Source of the DNA: Sulfurimonas sp. | GTDB lineage: Bacteria; Campylobacterota; Campylobacteria; Campylobacterales; Sulfurimonadaceae | Direction of reading: 5' to 3' | Assembly: GCF_016744025.1 (NCBI RefSeq) | Contig: NZ_JADGFC010000003.1 | Coordinates: forward strand, 1-63,187 | Length of the DNA stretch: 63,187 bases | Shown: positions 2,887 through 10,688 of the stretch, in pieces | Position numbering within the stretch: position 1 is the stretch's first letter | Layout: each line of letters opens with the position of its first letter | Notes under the pieces: generated by a model | The model's input: the letters and a program-made list of their open reading frames with translations, nothing else | The model's database searches: none | What the model was told of the DNA's origin: nothing | Program-made: the position numbers and the translations under genes

Positions 2887-3513
2887 TTATTGATTTACTA
2901 AGTTCTTTCCTTTATCAGAAAGAAAAGGATAAATATGTATTTTAAATATTATATCTTTTGCCTCTTTTATAGAGTCTTTTGTAATTTCACTACTTGAAGA
3001 GGTAAACACTTGCCAATAAGCCGATATGAACCAATGCAATTTTGCCCTTATTGGTATTTCATCATTTGGTATTCCTTCTAAGATATCTTGGCTTATAAGA
3101 TATCTTAGTAAACCATCGATTTGAGATATTCTTTTTTCTTGGTTTTTTGAGAACATTGTTTTTAGTTCTGAATCCATTGCCATTAATACCGCAGAATCTC
3201 TCATTAAAAATCTATAACTCCAAAATAGTTCACCATATATATCAAACATTAATGACAATTCTTTAAGAGGATTCTCACTAGTAGCTATTTTTTCAAAACT
3301 ATTAAAAGATACAAATGTTGAAGACATTTCTGTATATATTTCTCTTATTATTTCTTCTTTATTTTTATAATGATAATAAAGATTTCCAGAAGAGATGCCA
3401 GCATGTTTTGCTATATGATTAGTAGTAATAGATAATGTTTCTTTAGTGTTAAAAAGTTCTATTGCAGATCTTTTGATTTTTTCTTTTGTTATAGATATTT
3501 TCTTCTCTTTCAT
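2887..3513 (-). CDS. TetR/AcrR family transcriptional regulator
   Basis: 208 aa. The N-terminal 60 residues hold the TetR helix-turn-helix (TTNHIAKHAGISSGNLYYHY). The rest is the helical ligand-binding part, including the YGELFWSYRFLMRD segment seen in COG1309-like members. It is the first gene of the minus-strand unit tetR-pgeF-deaminase-RES and is divergent from a DinB-like gene. The 119-bp divergent region carries two copies of a 12-bp palindrome, probably its own operators, so it likely represses both itself and the DinB-like gene. The ligand is unknown. Confidence 0.85.
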   Translation of the reverse strand: MKEKKISITKEKIKRSAIELFNTKETLSITTNHIAKHAGISSGNLYYHYKNKEEIIREIYTEMSSTFVSFNSFEKIATSENPLKELSLMFDIYGELFWSYRFLMRDSAVLMAMDSELKTMFSKNQEKRISQIDGLLRYLISQDILEGIPNDEIPIRAKLHWFISAYWQVFTSSSSEITKDSIKEAKDIIFKIHIYPFLSDKGKNLVNQ

Positions 3514-3534
3514 ATACTGATAATAACATAGTCT

Positions 3535-3580
3535 GAGTAATTACTCTATTAAATAGTTAATAATTAGAGTAATTACTCTA
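3535..3580. promoter_or_regulatory. Twin palindromic operators for the TetR regulator
   Basis: GAGTAATTACTC occurs twice, at 3535-3546 and 3567-3578. The second is extended to the perfect 16-bp palindrome TAGAGTAATTACTCTA (3565-3580). The centres are 32 bp apart, about three helical turns, so two dimers would sit on the same DNA face. Position in the divergent promoter region next to a TetR gene makes an operator role very likely. Confidence 0.8.
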
Positions 3581-3632
3581 AATTTAAGTTATATTTTATA
3601 TTTGTTAAACTATATTTACACAGGAGATACAT

Positions 3633-4214
3633 ATGAAACTTGAAAAACCTGGAGCAGGACTTCCAAACATTGAGCGTTTATTTATTAAAAATATTTTAGT
3701 ACCAGCTGTTAGAATATTTTTTACTTGGGATATAGCTTTGTATCTCTTAAAAAGAGAAGTTAGACTTATTTCAAAATTAGTCTCTAGTGTAGATAAACAA
3801 AGTCTACAAGAACAAATGATAATAGATAGAGTCTTTGCTATAGAAGATGATAGTAGACGCTACTCTGTGAATATGGTTTTAGAACATTTAAATATTACTG
3901 GATTAGGAATAATGAAAGTTATAAGTACTTTGTCAAAAGAAGAAGAGATGAAACAAGATATTACAATTGAGAGTGTAAAAGCATATGAAAATGCACAAAA
4001 TTCTATTATTTCATTTACAAAATTTATGAAGACATATGAATCTTTTATAAACAAACTTCCTAAAAAGCACTCCTCGATGACTAAAAAACATCCATGGTTT
4101 GTTGAGTTTAATAACTTTGAATGGAGTGCATTTATGTTTATGCATACATTTATTCACAGAAGACAGATTGAAGCAATAATCTCTAAATTAAAAGAAAAAA
4201 AAATACAACTTTAG
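3633..4214 (+). CDS. DinB-like metal-dependent four-helix protein
   Basis: 193 aa with an AGGAGA ribosome site 6 bases before ATG. The pattern RRYSVNMVLEHLN (His85) and, near the end, MHTFIHRRQIEAI (His171, His175) matches the His triad of the DinB/YfiT superfamily. This superfamily includes thiol-dependent transferases that use bacillithiol or mycothiol. It faces the TetR gene across the twin operators and precedes ovoA by 91 bp, so it could act with a low-molecular-weight thiol such as ovothiol; that link is inference. The family call rests on motif spacing only. Confidence 0.6.
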   Translation: MKLEKPGAGLPNIERLFIKNILVPAVRIFFTWDIALYLLKREVRLISKLVSSVDKQSLQEQMIIDRVFAIEDDSRRYSVNMVLEHLNITGLGIMKVISTLSKEEEMKQDITIESVKAYENAQNSIISFTKFMKTYESFINKLPKKHSSMTKKHPWFVEFNNFEWSAFMFMHTFIHRRQIEAIISKLKEKKIQL

Positions 4215-4305: not shown

Positions 4306-6405
4306 TTGAGTAACCTTAGCATGTACCCTGTACCTATTGATGGAAATGATATACAAAAAAAGAGACAAGAGATAAAAGAGTATTTTAACAACACTTTTAC
4401 TCTCTATGAAAAAGTATTTGAACTACTTAAAACTGATGATGTATTTTATAAAAAATCAGAACTGACTCGTCATCCTATGATATTTTATTTTGGCCATACT
4501 GCAACTTTCTTTGTAAATAAACTAATAAATATGAAAATTATAAAAGAAAGAGTAGATGCTTCTTTTGAGTCTATCTTTGCTGTAGGTGTGGATGAGATGT
4601 CTTGGGATGATATAGATGCTAAGAACTATGCATGGCCAAGTGTTGATGAAGTTAGAGAGTATAGAGCAAAGGTAAGAGAGATGGTCAATGAGTTGATAAT
4701 GACTCTTCCTCTAACTCTACCAGTAGCACAAGACTCTGATATGTGGGTAATCATTATGGGAATCGAGCATGAAAGAATTCATGTAGAGACTTCGCTTGCA
4801 CTTCATAGACAGATGCCAATAGAATTTGTAAAAGAGATTGAGGCATTTAATCTTTGTCCTCACAGTTCACAAGCTCCTACAAATGAGATGCTAAATATAA
4901 AAACTGCTCATATAGAACTAGGCAAGAGTAAAGAACATCATCTTTATGGCTGGGATAACGAGTATGGAACTTATGCAGAGGATGTTAAAGAGTTTAAAAC
5001 ATCGAAGTATCTTGTTAGTAATGGCGAATTTATGGAGTTTGTCAAAGATGGTGGATATATAAATGAAGATTTATGGGATGAAGAGGGTATTGATTTTTTA
5101 AAAAGTTCAAGAGCAATACACCCTTCTTTTTGGATTTTAGAAGATGCAGAGTATAAGTATAGAGCATTGAGTGCGATTATAGATATGCCACTAGATTGGC
5201 CAGTTGATGTTAATGCACTCGAAGCCGAAGCATTCTGTAGATACAAAAGTCAAAAAGATGGTGTTACTTATTCTCTTCCAAGTGAGGCTGAACATAGAGC
5301 AATATACAATCAATCAAGACTACAAGATCTTCCGAATTTTCATGAGAGTAGAGCAAATCTTAACTTCTATCACTATGCTAGTGCATGTCCTGTAAATGAG
5401 TTTAGTTTTAATGGCATCTATGATGTGGTAGGAAATGTTTGGCAGTGGAGTAGAACGCCCATTAGAGGATTTGAAGGTTTTGAGATACATCCAGCTTATG
5501 ATGATTTTTCAGTTCCAACATTTGATGATAAACACTCTCTTATACTAGGTTCTTCTTGGGCAAGTAGTGGAAACTTGATTATGAAGCATTCTCGTTACGC
5601 TTTTAGAAAACACTTTCCTCAAAATGCAGGTTTTAGATATGTTATCTCACAAAATATAAGTGATGAAGAAATTGACATTTATGAGAGTGATGAACTTGTT
5701 TCTCAGTACTGTGAGTTTCAGTATGGAGATACGCACTTTGGAGTAGAAAACTTTGCAATAGAGTGTGCAAAGATAGCATCTAAGTTTGCAATCAAAAAAG
5801 GCAAGGCGCTTGATCTTGGTTGTGCAACAGGTAGAGCTACGTATGAGCTTGCAAAAGATTTTGATGAAGTTGAAGGAATCGACTTTTCAGTAAGATTTGT
5901 TCAAGTTGGAGCGAAGCTAAAAGAAGTGGGAGAGATAAAGTTTCGTTCATCTGAAGAAGGTAGCCTTTTTAGCAATAAGTGCGTCAGTATTGAAGAATTA
6001 GGTTATGAGAACTTAACAGACAAGGTCTCTTTTTGGCAAGGTGATGCTTGTAATCTAAAGCCAAATTTTAACTCTTATGATTTAGTTATTGCAACAAATC
6101 TGATAGACAGACTCTATAATCCTAGACTATTTTTAGACACTATAGATGAGAGACTAAATGATGATGGAGTCCTTATAATTACATCACCATACACTTGGCA
6201 AGAGAGTTCAACTGCAAAAGAGTTGTGGCTTGGAGGCTATGTAGATACAAATGGAGTTGAGGTTAAAACTCTTGATTCTTTAAAAGCTGTTTTAGATAAA
6301 AAGTTTGAACTCCTTCATGTACAAGATTTGGATTTTGTGATTAAAGAGACAGCTAGAAAGTATCAGCATACTATTTCACAAGTTAGTGTTTGGAAGAAAA
6401 AATAA
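4306..6405 (+). CDS. ovoA: OvoA, 5-histidylcysteine sulfoxide synthase with methyltransferase domain
   Basis: 699 aa, the usual OvoA length, from a TTG start with AAAGG upstream. The domain order is that of OvoA. A DinB-like iron-binding part carries His64 (FYFGHTATFF) and the HxxxHxE motif His155-His159-Glu161 (IEHERIHVETS). A formylglycine-generating-enzyme-like catalytic part (about 190-435, GNVWQWSRTP) follows, then a SAM methyltransferase (about 470-699, motif I DLGCATGRA at 503-511). OvoA joins cysteine and histidine with O2 to give 5-histidylcysteine sulfoxide, and its methyltransferase domain N-methylates 5-thiohistidine to ovothiol A. Ovothiol is a strong antioxidant thiol. The next pathway enzyme appears at 9504, separated by the TOPRIM gene. 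Confidence 0.93.
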   Translation: MSNLSMYPVPIDGNDIQKKRQEIKEYFNNTFTLYEKVFELLKTDDVFYKKSELTRHPMIFYFGHTATFFVNKLINMKIIKERVDASFESIFAVGVDEMSWDDIDAKNYAWPSVDEVREYRAKVREMVNELIMTLPLTLPVAQDSDMWVIIMGIEHERIHVETSLALHRQMPIEFVKEIEAFNLCPHSSQAPTNEMLNIKTAHIELGKSKEHHLYGWDNEYGTYAEDVKEFKTSKYLVSNGEFMEFVKDGGYINEDLWDEEGIDFLKSSRAIHPSFWILEDAEYKYRALSAIIDMPLDWPVDVNALEAEAFCRYKSQKDGVTYSLPSEAEHRAIYNQSRLQDLPNFHESRANLNFYHYASACPVNEFSFNGIYDVVGNVWQWSRTPIRGFEGFEIHPAYDDFSVPTFDDKHSLILGSSWASSGNLIMKHSRYAFRKHFPQNAGFRYVISQNISDEEIDIYESDELVSQYCEFQYGDTHFGVENFAIECAKIASKFAIKKGKALDLGCATGRATYELAKDFDEVEGIDFSVRFVQVGAKLKEVGEIKFRSSEEGSLFSNKCVSIEELGYENLTDKVSFWQGDACNLKPNFNSYDLVIATNLIDRLYNPRLFLDTIDERLNDDGVLIITSPYTWQESSTAKELWLGGYVDTNGVEVKTLDSLKAVLDKKFELLHVQDLDFVIKETARKYQHTISQVSVWKKK

Positions 6406-6411
6406 TTAATA

Positions 6412-9400
6412 ATGGTAAATCAAAATTATTTAAATGAACTTTCAGTAGATTTAGAAAAAAAATTATCTCTGTATAAAGAAGATTATAATAAAAAACAAGA
6501 ATATAGCTTTAATGATGAAATACTTAAAGAGTTTTCATCAATATTAGTTAAGATTGGTATCTCTGATGTCTCTGCCCAAATAAAAGCTTTTAATAAAAAA
6601 CATAAAGTGGAGTTAGAGTTACATAATGATTTTTTAGAATATCCATGGCACGATATAAGTGCTTTGAGTAGTGAATTATATGCTACTTTATATTATCAAT
6701 TTAAAGATGAGGCATTTGAAAAATTTCTTGATATTATAAAAAATAAGCTGCCAAGGCATAATTATCATGACTGGTTTAGTCTCTCTTTTGAAAATGATGA
6801 TATAAAAAATCATTTTTTAGATAATGCAACAGAATATATTATACAAAATCAACTTTCATCTACAGAATGGTTAGAAGCTTTAAAAAGGATAGATTTAAAT
6901 AAAAATACAAGAATTAGATATTCTAGTATCGAAAAAGTATCCAAAGATTTTAATTCAATATATGAATTGTTTTATTTTTTTAAAGAAGATAAATATCGTG
7001 AGTATACTTATTATGTTGGTTCAAGTCTTATTGTTAACCTTCTTCATACTTTAATCAATTTAGAAACACACAATCCATATAAAAAAAGTTATGAAAGAAT
7101 TAATAAAATTCTTAAAGAGTGTGCTAATGATTATGTGATAATGGGAAATATATTGACAAGCAATAGCATAAAATTTAATTCATATCTTTTGACACAAAGA
7201 GAATATTCAATTTATGGTTTTCTTAACTTATATAATATTAATTCTTCTCCGAAGCAGATTGAAACTGATTATATAAAACAATGGCAAGAGATGCTAGCTA
7301 ATCAACTGATTGATATATTTTTTGAACATTATAAATATGAACAATATAAAGATAGTTTTAGTAAGCTTATTTATAATTTATTAAACTATTTAGTTAGTGA
7401 ACACATTGGTGAATTAACTAAAAAACATCAAAACAAAGCAACCTATACTCTAAAAAGAGTGTTAGAAAAAATAAGCATTATAGAGATTGCAACATCAGAA
7501 TATGAAAAAAAATATCTGTTTCATTTGATAATAGAAGACATTGTTAATAAACAATTAGAAAAATTTGTAATACAAGATGAATTTGATTCTACGGATTATT
7601 TTTTATTATCTTGGTATTTAGAACAGTTAGATATAAAACAAAAAGTTACAGATAATGATTACAGTAATTTAATAGATAATATAACGGTTGTAATTTTAGA
7701 TAATATAAAAAAATGCATAGATATAGCGACCAATGAAGATAAGTTTTATATAAATGATGAGATATTAGAAAGAGTGAATTTTGGGTTGATATTTACACTT
7801 TCAAAAGAAAAAGAAAACTGGTTAAATCTTTTAGATATTGTAAAGATAAAAGAGCAACTAAATAGTAACGATATTTATATGCCTCGAAAAATATCAGAAT
7901 TTTATCTTAAAATATTAATGAGAATATATAAAGAAACAGAAGATCCTATAGTGGCTGAGTATATAAATAAGCTAGCTATTAAAATAGGAATAGAAGAGAG
8001 AAGCGGAGTATTTGCTGATTGGCAAGATAATAGACTTTTAGATGATTTTTTAGAGATTTTAAATAGTTTTAATGATTATTTATTTGGTGAGTTTACAACT
8101 GCATTTTATAAAAAGAAAAATATTAAGCATTTTTTACAGTTATATAATTACACTTTAGTTGAGTCAAGAAAAACAAAAATAAAAGAAGAGCTTGATAATA
8201 TAACTAAAAATCTCAATAGCGAAAGTATTCCATACTTGAAAGATTTAGAAGATTCTATGATGTATGCTTCTGTTTATGAAGAGCTCAAAGAATTAAATAG
8301 TGATTTGTTTAATATTTATAAAAAAAATGTCGCAACTAAAGGTCATCCATCTAGAAAAAAAGAGTATGAAGAAGTAATATGCAAAAGAGAGCTACTAGAT
8401 ATATATTTTGATAGTAATTTAGATAGAGAACAAAAACATATAAAATTAAATGAGTATACAAAAAGAATAAAAGAGATAAATGATAAAAATTGGGGAGTAG
8501 AATCAACACAAACAAGATATGAAAATTATCAATCTTTTGTACATGCTATTGTATGGTTTGAAGAAGAGCCATATAAAACATATGAAATGTTAAGAAAGCT
8601 GTTGAATAAAGAGTTCAATAATTTGTATCTTATTAATATGTTAAGTGCTTATCTCACAAAATTTAAAGATGATGAGTATAAAATACAAAAATATACTCAT
8701 GCCTTAGATGAATATGAAAATTATTATAAAAAAATGAATAATCCAATAAAAAGTTTGTTTGATTATCAAATTTTAATATATGGTTATACGCAAACAAAAA
8801 ATACAATTAAATTGCTAGAACTAGATGCTAAAATACCCAAAGATTATATACCGTTTGTTAAAAAGGAACTACCTAAAGAAATAATTCTTTTCAATACTAC
8901 TGTTATAATGAAAAGTAAACTAATTGTTTGTGTAGAAGGTGAAAACGATATATCATTTTTAAAAAATATAAACCAAAATATAGAAGATTTGAAAGAAATA
9001 ATCGATTTAAAAGAGAATAATATTTCTATTATGGATTTAGGTGGAAGCAGATTAAAGAAGTGGATTGACAACCATCATTTAAATGATTCAAATATTATGG
9101 AAATACATATTTATGATAGTGATATTGGTTCAAAAAGTACCAACCAATATAAACAATATTGCGAAAAAGTTAATAATAGAGATAATAAATCAATAGGCTT
9201 TTTAACAAAGAAGAGAGAGTTAGAGAATTATATACATAAGTCATTGATAGAAAAAGAATTTAATATTGATATGTCAAGTATAAGTGATTGGAATGTAGAG
9301 GATATACCATCCTTTATACATAATAAATCAAAAAATATAGATAAAAAATCAATAAAAAATATTTTAAATGAAAAATTATCAAAGCAGATAACAAAGGATC

Positions 9401-9474
9401 TTCTAGAAGAGTTGGATTCTTTTGATGAAATAAAAAGTTGGTTTGAGAAAATAAGAGAGCTATCAGTATTATGA
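6412..9474 (+). CDS. Large uncharacterised protein with C-terminal TOPRIM domain
   Basis: 1020 aa starting 6 bp after ovoA. Residues 1 to about 835 are predicted helical, rich in Lys, Glu, Asn, Tyr and Ile, without Walker motifs, signal peptide or membrane segments; they may be helical repeats. From 835 on a TOPRIM fold can be read: LIVCVEGEND with Glu842, IMDLGGS with a Gly-Gly turn, IHIYDSD with Asp902 and Asp904, and KKRELENYI (933-941), an arrangement seen in OLD-like and DUF4435-type TOPRIM proteins. TOPRIM uses Glu and DxD to hold Mg2+ for strand cleavage or transfer. Hand counts of several 60-base stretches gave 15-27% G+C here against 30-45% in ovoA and the lyase, which suggests transfer into an existing operon. 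OLD-type proteins carry an ABC ATPase; none is seen here. Function unknown; a nuclease or defence role is inference. Confidence 0.75.
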   Translation: MVNQNYLNELSVDLEKKLSLYKEDYNKKQEYSFNDEILKEFSSILVKIGISDVSAQIKAFNKKHKVELELHNDFLEYPWHDISALSSELYATLYYQFKDEAFEKFLDIIKNKLPRHNYHDWFSLSFENDDIKNHFLDNATEYIIQNQLSSTEWLEALKRIDLNKNTRIRYSSIEKVSKDFNSIYELFYFFKEDKYREYTYYVGSSLIVNLLHTLINLETHNPYKKSYERINKILKECANDYVIMGNILTSNSIKFNSYLLTQREYSIYGFLNLYNINSSPKQIETDYIKQWQEMLANQLIDIFFEHYKYEQYKDSFSKLIYNLLNYLVSEHIGELTKKHQNKATYTLKRVLEKISIIEIATSEYEKKYLFHLIIEDIVNKQLEKFVIQDEFDSTDYFLLSWYLEQLDIKQKVTDNDYSNLIDNITVVILDNIKKCIDIATNEDKFYINDEILERVNFGLIFTLSKEKENWLNLLDIVKIKEQLNSNDIYMPRKISEFYLKILMRIYKETEDPIVAEYINKLAIKIGIEERSGVFADWQDNRLLDDFLEILNSFNDYLFGEFTTAFYKKKNIKHFLQLYNYTLVESRKTKIKEELDNITKNLNSESIPYLKDLEDSMMYASVYEELKELNSDLFNIYKKNVATKGHPSRKKEYEEVICKRELLDIYFDSNLDREQKHIKLNEYTKRIKEINDKNWGVESTQTRYENYQSFVHAIVWFEEEPYKTYEMLRKLLNKEFNNLYLINMLSAYLTKFKDDEYKIQKYTHALDEYENYYKKMNNPIKSLFDYQILIYGYTQTKNTIKLLELDAKIPKDYIPFVKKELPKEIILFNTTVIMKSKLIVCVEGENDISFLKNINQNIEDLKEIIDLKENNISIMDLGGSRLKKWIDNHHLNDSNIMEIHIYDSDIGSKSTNQYKQYCEKVNNRDNKSIGFLTKKRELENYIHKSLIEKEFNIDMSSISDWNVEDIPSFIHNKSKNIDKKSIKNILNEKLSKQITKDLLEELDSFDEIKSWFEKIRELSVL

Positions 9475-9503
9475 ATATAAAAAATATTAAAGAGAGATAA
9501 AAA

Positions 9504-10688
9504 ATGAGTTACGATTTTTCAACACATGATTGCAGAAAAGACACAAATGCAGAAAAGTACACTTTAAGAGAAGAGTTATTTGGAACTGAGGATGTCTTAC
9601 CTGTGTGGGTTGCAGATATGGATATAGATACTCCTGATTTTGTAATAGATGCAGTCAAAAAAAGACTTGAACACTCCATCGTCGGTTATGAAGAAGTTCC
9701 TACTGAGGCATTCCAAGCTCAGATAGAGTGGATGAAGAGTGAGCACGGTGTTAAGTTTGAGCTTGAAGATATGCTTTACTCTCACTCAGTCGTTGCATCT
9801 ATGAGTCTTGCAATAGATGCTTTTAGTGATGTAGGAGATAAGGTTATTGTTCAAGCTCCTGTATATCCTCCATTTTTTTATAGTGTAAAAGAAAATGACA
9901 GAGAATTATTGAGAAATCCTTTAAAACAAAATGAAGATGGTATCTATGTTTTTGATATAGAGGATTTAAAATCTAAAATAGATGAAAAAACAAAATTGCT
10001 TCTTCTTTGTTCGCCTCACAACCCAGTAGGAAGAGTTTGGAAGAGAGAAGAACTTGAAGAGATTTTAGAGATATGTTTAGAGCACAATATTGTTGTCTTT
10101 AGTGATGAAATCCACTCAGACTTAGTTTATGCTCCAAACAAACATATTCCTTTTGCATCTTTGAGTAAAGAAGCTAGGGATATAACAGTAACTGCTATCG
10201 GTGTTGGTAAGACTTTTAATATGGCTGGTTTTGCTATGAGTAGTGTTGCTATCCCAAATAAACAACTAAGAGAGAAATTTTTAAAATCTTATACCCGTGT
10301 TCATTTTGCACAAGGCTCTGTTTTGAGTCATGTCGCTTTTGAAGTAGCGTATAGAGATGGAAAAGAGTGGTTGGATGATTTAAAGCTGCATCTAATGAGT
10401 AACTTTAAAATGCTAAATACACTTTGTCAAAAGTATGATGATAAGATAAAAGTTATACCGATTGAAGCAACCTATCTAGCTTGGTTAGATTGTAAAGGTA
10501 TGAATCTAAGTAGTAGTAAACTTAGAAAGTTTTTCACTCAAGATGCAAAGCTTGGACTCACTGTAGGTCTTAGTTTTGGTAAAGAGGGAAGTGGTTTTAT
10601 GAGACTTAACTTTGCAGTTTCTACTACAAAGATGCTTGAAGTAATTAAGCGCTTAGACCGAGCACTTTCGCTAAAATATCCAAAGTAA
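9504..10688 (+). CDS. MalY/PatB-type PLP C-S lyase, likely OvoB
   Basis: 394 aa, full length for the MalY/PatB cystathionine beta-lyase group. The opening NAD-like stretch VLPVWVADMDIDTP, SPHNPVGRVW with Asn173, SDEIHSD with Asp201, and the PLP lysine Lys236 in VGKTFNMAGF are intact. The family cleaves C-S bonds of cysteine conjugates. In ovothiol synthesis a PLP-dependent sulfoxide lyase (OvoB, like Egt2 for ergothioneine) cleaves the OvoA product to 5-thiohistidine. Being the next same-strand gene after ovoA, apart from the inserted TOPRIM gene, makes OvoB the best guess. A general cystathionine lyase remains possible. Confidence 0.85.
   Translation: MSYDFSTHDCRKDTNAEKYTLREELFGTEDVLPVWVADMDIDTPDFVIDAVKKRLEHSIVGYEEVPTEAFQAQIEWMKSEHGVKFELEDMLYSHSVVASMSLAIDAFSDVGDKVIVQAPVYPPFFYSVKENDRELLRNPLKQNEDGIYVFDIEDLKSKIDEKTKLLLLCSPHNPVGRVWKREELEEILEICLEHNIVVFSDEIHSDLVYAPNKHIPFASLSKEARDITVTAIGVGKTFNMAGFAMSSVAIPNKQLREKFLKSYTRVHFAQGSVLSHVAFEVAYRDGKEWLDDLKLHLMSNFKMLNTLCQKYDDKIKVIPIEATYLAWLDCKGMNLSSSKLRKFFTQDAKLGLTVGLSFGKEGSGFMRLNFAVSTTKMLEVIKRLDRALSLKYPK

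Follow-up and report, generated by a model that had tools for sequence, protein, structure and literature searches.

The window considered here is a 63,187-nucleotide stretch of Sulfurimonas sp. DNA (NCBI RefSeq assembly GCF_016744025.1, contig NZ_JADGFC010000003.1, positions 1 to 63,187 of the forward strand). On its plus strand, an ATG-initiated gene at 6412..9474 encodes a 1020-residue protein with a helical scaffold and a C-terminal OLD-like TOPRIM domain; its insertion site, where related bacteria have restriction enzymes and other anti-phage genes, makes a role as an undescribed anti-phage protein with a swappable nuclease end probable. The features of this gene and both flanking genes lie on this strand. 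Upstream is ovoA (5-histidylcysteine sulfoxide synthase, 4306..6405; TIGR04344 E 3e-195, TIGR04345 E 1e-93), and downstream is a gene for a PatB-family C-S lyase (9504..10688; TIGR04350 E 6e-158) that is probably OvoB, given its adjacency to ovoA. With the ovoA stop at 6405 and the lyase start at 9504, gaps of 6 bp and 29 bp surround the gene, as in a preliminary description of this DNA. Base composition sets the gene apart from its surroundings. Its G+C content of 23.4% is the lowest among the 45 open reading frames of at least 150 residues in the window (others 32.2 +/- 2.7%, z -3.3), versus 34.7% in each flanking gene. The foreign composition reported earlier is therefore borne out, although the quoted range of 15-27% was slightly too low; 200-bp steps along the gene give 19-28%.

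The TOPRIM domain spans residues 836-1020 (8917..9471). The Pfam OLD-like_TOPRIM family matches residues 836-903 below its cut-off (17.4 versus 23.2 bits), and the assignment stands despite this weak score because translated searches find the region 34-45% identical to the C-termini of AAA_15 (OLD-like) ATPases, one of which gives the same sub-threshold Pfam match. The closest, at 45% identity, is the C-terminus of a Fusobacteriota OLD-like ATPase; matches include Ilyobacter (E 7e-31) and the genomes G236 (E 5e-31) and G303. Across four homologous TOPRIM domains, E842, D846, G878, D902, D904, K934, E936, E938, N939, and Y940 are invariant. These include the predicted metal-binding glutamate E842 (codon 8935..8937), the predicted metal-binding aspartates of the DxD motif D902-S903-D904 (9115..9123), and most of the RELENY motif at residues 935-940 (9214..9231), which is kept in this TOPRIM lineage. 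When the profile of the TOPRIM alignment was set against a single Old TOPRIM, the match was not significant, so membership in the OLD type rests on the AAA_15 intermediates. The 1020-residue protein contains no Walker A or relaxed P-loop motif, and a Pfam scan returned no ATPase match. Both the TOPRIM-like end and the lack of ATPase motifs had been proposed from the sequence beforehand.

Residues 1-812 (6412..8847) form a conserved scaffold, defined by homology and predicted to be helical. In a full-length AlphaFold2 model of low confidence (mean pLDDT 49.6), residues 1-825 are all helix and strands occur only at 831-843 and 895-902. This agrees with the roughly 835 helical residues first described, at the reliability that such a model allows. 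Foldseek on this model returned generic alpha-solenoids only, with TM-scores of 0.27 or less, and these were not used as evidence of relationship; for the TOPRIM fold, homology at the sequence level takes the place of a structural match. A weak TPR-like match near the scaffold end in two family members agrees with a predicted solenoid. A Pfam scan gave no family for residues 1-812, scans of the protein against PADLOC (2023), NCBIfam, and PHROGs gave no match, and no sequence in the Protein Data Bank (PDB) matched the protein, the scaffold profile, or the TOPRIM profile. Three accessions of the family are unmentioned in the open-licence papers searched; a description elsewhere is possible, and the defence database used dates from 2023.

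The same scaffold carries a different C-terminus in most relatives, which the preliminary description had not recognised. Among 399 genomes of the order, two proteins, of 1280 and 1110 residues, match residues 1-812 (E 1e-131 and 9e-115), and the scaffold is 34-36% identical to such same-order proteins with another end. In place of the TOPRIM domain, these proteins have a domain with a conserved E...GExD...EAF pattern (E91, G129-E130-x-D132, and E147-A-F in the alignment). From this motif the domain looks like a PD-(D/E)XK nuclease, a reading that no library scanned and no solved structure confirmed; its profile found only yeast FAF1 in the PDB, at about 0.02 and over a segment outside the motif, which was taken as chance. 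An AlphaFold2 model of this effector has a mean pLDDT of 43, and it and the full-length model were built from few sequences. A search of the family to which G118 belongs added members from the genomes G471, G443, and G454. The G454 protein (locus L017) is a full-length orthologue of 1030 residues with the same TOPRIM end and a scaffold 34-36% identical to that of the window protein.

The non-TOPRIM C-terminus is carried by most members, which come from Campylobacterota, Proteobacteria, and prophages. A tblastn search of plasmids with the G471 scaffold and effector found 'hypothetical proteins' of 1252-1269 residues in Edwardsiella, Salmonella Senftenberg, and Burkholderia. The GExD...EAF effector matched three viral contigs, and the search with it yielded proteins of 1258 and 1263 residues on IMG/VR contigs, one adjoining phage-type genes (a Rha-like gene among them); scans of viral contigs with the window protein, the scaffold alignment, and the TOPRIM domain gave no match. 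Direct BLASTP between the window protein and the Salmonella plasmid homologue was also negative. The link runs through intermediates and through a profile comparison that connects the window-side scaffolds to the enterobacterial and Burkholderia proteins (97.5% probability, E 6.5e-12, 683 columns). Scaffold length across the family is about 810-930 residues. When nine scaffolds are placed in one tree, the pair with TOPRIM (81/86) is nested among proteins that bear the other effector (100/100 for the joint clade), and the simplest reading is therefore that TOPRIM replaced the other domain once. On these comparisons, a predicted nuclease end is swapped on a conserved scaffold, with TOPRIM in the window and L017 and GExD...EAF in the others.

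Individual members show further variation. The G118 protein (L002:1498-5337) has a GNAT acetyltransferase fused after its effector (Pfam match at 1153-1252) that an 82% identical G268 protein (L003:1501-4830) lacks, which suggests that a neighbouring gene recently became fused or that a stop codon was lost. The G443 copy (L016:8094-11287) is split into two adjacent reading frames of 367 and 680 residues at a contig end, suggesting a broken gene or an assembly error. In Photobacterium toruni, the GExD...EAF effector forms the end of an LRR-Roc-COR protein (L073:3673-6408) whose gene lies in a type I-F CRISPR-associated transposon, between tniB/xre and tniQ/cas.

Defence genes recur beside family members in several unrelated genomes. 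At L017, Tn7-like tnsABC/tniQ genes, identified from their sequences, lie on one side, and an HNH gene with RdrB and RdrA of RADAR on the other (RdrA 8e-33, RdrB 1e-22). The RADAR pair is divergent (L017:12162-17265), encodes an RdrB of 754 and an RdrA of 953 residues, and adjoins the Tn7-like element. In Malaciobacter halophilus (G471) and Sulfurimonas N3M-Bin_6, the scaffold gene is the last of a type I restriction-modification (RM) cluster with a PtuA-like ATPase. The G443 gene adjoins a dCTP deaminase (dCTPase 1.5e-156) and an integrase, and the G118 gene adjoins RhuM (PDC-S05) and a type IIG RM enzyme. The Burkholderia member lies beside an Old nuclease (1.5e-84) and a retron-type reverse transcriptase, and the Salmonella member beside an ATPase with weak similarity to type II restriction endonucleases. 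Guilt by association with defence genes, as judged from these sequences, is strong but not universal.

The Malaciobacter and Sulfurimonas loci share more than the scaffold gene. A conserved block at L015:3659-10655 and L067:6286-13234, comprising the PtuA-like ATPase, a 464-470-residue protein with no PADLOC match, and the scaffold-nuclease, terminates two very similar type I RM clusters. This similarity suggests recent transfer between families, and the block is perhaps a multi-gene version of the system.

One alternative holds that the window protein belongs to such a multi-gene system, with an OLD- or PtuA-like ATPase acting in trans, its partner lost or encoded elsewhere, and the window gene itself perhaps inactive. 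The order of genes in L015 and L067, where the scaffold gene follows the PtuA-like ATPase and the 464-470-residue protein, and that in L070, where it follows an Old nuclease, are what such a system would produce. The insert in the window consists of this gene alone, its reading frame and active site are intact, and neither the TOPRIM orthologue at L017 nor the members at L003 and L069 have an adjacent OLD-type ATPase, all of which make the multi-gene explanation unlikely. A second alternative is a barrier to plasmids or DNA entry, in which the scaffold would recognise DNA that is foreign or abnormal in structure, leaving the TOPRIM domain to cut it, much as JetD does in Wadjet. JetD is homologous to the OLD TOPRIM (PMC10568477), and the occurrence of members on plasmids and by a Tn7-like element is consistent with a role in excluding competitors, which would pay in those settings. 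SMC-like partners (JetABC) were not seen near the members read, and several neighbours (RADAR, dCTP deaminase, retron-type reverse transcriptase) come from anti-phage systems; a plasmid barrier is a distinctly unlikely account.

The position of the gene provides a separate line of evidence. Junctions between ovoA and ovoB were surveyed in 96 congeneric genomes, the window included, that have both genes on one contig. In 80 of the 96 the junction has no insert, the two genes abutting or overlapping, mostly by 4 bp in those read; relative to these, the window carries a 3098-bp insert (6406..9503), and the operon is indeed interrupted, as had been claimed. The remaining 16, the window among them, have 0.95-5.4 kb between ovoA and ovoB. 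Several inserts with shared cargo may stem from one event, so that 16 is not the number of independent insertions. RM genes occur in 10 of the 15 other inserts, six detected by hidden Markov models (HMMs) and four as close sequence relatives (L052, L060, L062, L065). The HMM-detected cargo comprises NgoPII, Eco47II, MmeI, a type IIG enzyme with TIR (PDC-S35) and YhcG (PDC-S02), and a C5 methylase; the Eco47II-type cargo is an enzyme in L061 and a C5 methylase of its own in L056. Four of the 15 have RhuM, KilA-N, or ORF6N-type genes, named from domains read in their sequences. A control tight pair, CtpA|purC, has no insert above 100 bp in about 104 genomes, as read from coordinates. By the predicted functions of the cargo, defence genes recur between ovoA and ovoB across the genus, which marks this junction as a hotspot for their insertion.

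The inserts also share sequence at their left ends. Eleven of the 15 others (L050-L054, L058-L060, L062, L063, L065) open with either of two sequences (TATTGCAAAATGACATATTTT or CTTTAGTTTTGTTTTTAT-like), which begins no more than about 5 bp in, and differ in cargo. TATTGCAAAATGACATATTTT is also scattered over genomes of the genus, and the window insert has neither left end. A promoter or operator might account for these shared ends, as might past exchange of cargo. Upstream of ovoA, the window has a TetR-type regulator and a 193-residue protein (2887-4214) between a pgeF-like gene and ovoA, whereas in the close relative G379 (L055) pgeF immediately precedes ovoA and both genes are absent; by this comparison the pair is a second accessory insertion. 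The TetR gene is likewise AT-rich (26.5% G+C).

The rarity of the gene bears on a third alternative, a chromosomal regulator or DNA-repair protein that has no defence role and sits in the ovothiol operon by chance. RecR, primases, and topoisomerases have TOPRIM domains too, and the member at L014 has no defence neighbour. Far from being universal between ovoA and ovoB, the gene is absent from 36 of 36 other genomes of the genus that were compared, and of the 399 genomes of the order only 3 clearly have its scaffold. This patchy distribution, the strongly deviant G+C content, the defence hotspot with repeated defence neighbours, and the OLD-like ATPases as owners of the nearest TOPRIMs together leave such a role highly improbable. 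A part in ovothiol synthesis was considered and dropped, since nearly all ovoA-carrying relatives lack the gene. The idea of a truncated or decayed OLD protein, its ATPase replaced by an unrelated and functionless N-terminal sequence, fits the clearly OLD-like lineage of the TOPRIM end but can be dismissed, because the roughly 810 N-terminal residues are kept at 34-36% identity in other genera, are recognisable by profile in other phyla, and are also used with another effector.

The defence role first suggested for this gene is thus supported by two independent lines, the defence-gene neighbours in several unrelated genomes and the recurrent use of the junction by RM genes. The gene probably encodes a horizontally acquired, single-gene anti-phage protein in which a scaffold gates a TOPRIM nuclease, and effectors would have been exchanged on a common sensor, given that most relatives have a different nuclease-like domain on the same scaffold. 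In the proposed mechanism, the solenoid of about 810 residues would act as sensor and scaffold and keep the OLD-type TOPRIM nuclease inactive until a phage trigger lifts the inhibition. The metal-dependent domain (E842, D902, D904) may then cut nucleic acid, either phage or host DNA or, as AriB does, tRNA, and cleavage would halt infection directly or through growth arrest. The gene would be transcribed with the ovothiol operon and have no ovothiol function; its position there would reflect the repeated use of the ovoA|ovoB junction by incoming defence genes.

Several observations weigh against this interpretation. The G268 member (L014) has no recognisable defence neighbour, and the members at L015, L067, and L070 adjoin an OLD- or PtuA-like ATPase, so that not every member need act alone. 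One of the 15 other inserts encodes an apparently secreted and apparently unrelated hydrolase, named from its sequence. The full-length model that covers the scaffold is of low reliability (mean pLDDT 49.6), PADLOC 2023 has no model for the scaffold family, and no function has been reported for any of its members.

The defining features compared place the predicted protein outside OLD proteins, Gabija, PARIS, retrons, Wadjet, and RM systems. OLD proteins combine an N-terminal ABC ATPase with a C-terminal TOPRIM domain (PMC10568477), and the family comprises class 1 Old, class 2 GajA of Gabija, and class 3 retron OLD. The window protein resembles these in its C-terminal TOPRIM with the acidic residues of a two-metal site, including E, DxD, and a second acidic motif (E842, D846, D902, D904, E936, E938), and in its association with phage defence. 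It differs in lacking the ABC ATPase and Walker A motif, having instead the unrelated helical scaffold of about 810 residues; moreover, its neighbours, ovoA and a PatB-type lyase, are not those of Gabija. In the literature, OLD and Gabija TOPRIMs cut DNA and the PARIS TOPRIM, AriB, cleaves tRNA (PMC12409363, PMC12839542). PARIS (AriA/AriB) is similar in using a TOPRIM effector for defence, which makes tRNA a plausible target here; unlike PARIS, the window gene has no adjoining AriA-type ATPase, its PADLOC scan is empty, and its TOPRIM is fused to the helical scaffold. Retron-Eco2, a fusion of reverse transcriptase and TOPRIM, likewise places a TOPRIM effector in one polypeptide (PMC12405507), but Pfam and PADLOC scans show no reverse transcriptase domain of the type I-C/Eco2 kind in the window protein. 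No jetABC genes adjoin the window gene as in Wadjet, and the one-gene insert has no methyltransferase match as in an RM system.

Closer parallels exist for the exchange of effectors and for the insertion site. In BREX-related loci, TOPRIM is exchanged for PD-(D/E)XK, HNH, or PIN nucleases beside one sensor (PMC12839542). The common part of those modules is an OLD-ABC ATPase, whereas here it is a helical scaffold free of NTPase motifs. The window protein shares with its own family the homologous scaffold and a C-terminal domain of nuclease type, and its family has the genomic association with defence genes that marks anti-phage proteins. The core-gene hotspots of Pseudomonas aeruginosa and the defence islands of Escherichia coli also combine a fixed site with turnover of defence cargo (PMC10250203, PMC10121019), and hotspots with no recognisable mobile elements have been described (PMC5635113). 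The site in the window differs in that it lies within a biosynthetic operon of two genes; in most of the unfilled genomes read, ovoA and ovoB overlap by 4 bp.

A broader proposal can be advanced tentatively. The protein may represent an NTPase-free immune family, distributed across Campylobacterota, Proteobacteria, Tn7-like elements, plasmids, and prophages, in which a helical solenoid of a single polypeptide senses infection and itself gates an exchangeable nuclease at the C-terminus, with the ovothiol operon providing a defence slot that has no recognisable integrase. In the literature consulted, TOPRIM defence nucleases work under the control of either an ATPase or a reverse transcriptase. 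If the proposal is true, a scaffold bearing either TOPRIM or another nuclease-like domain would represent a different gating of the same chemistry, and the effector swap points to a common trigger. None of the annotation libraries tried recognises the scaffold family. Even a compact operon of tightly coupled genes can evidently act as a landing site for defence genes, and the ovoA|ovoB slot would be a simple place to find further undescribed systems in the genus.
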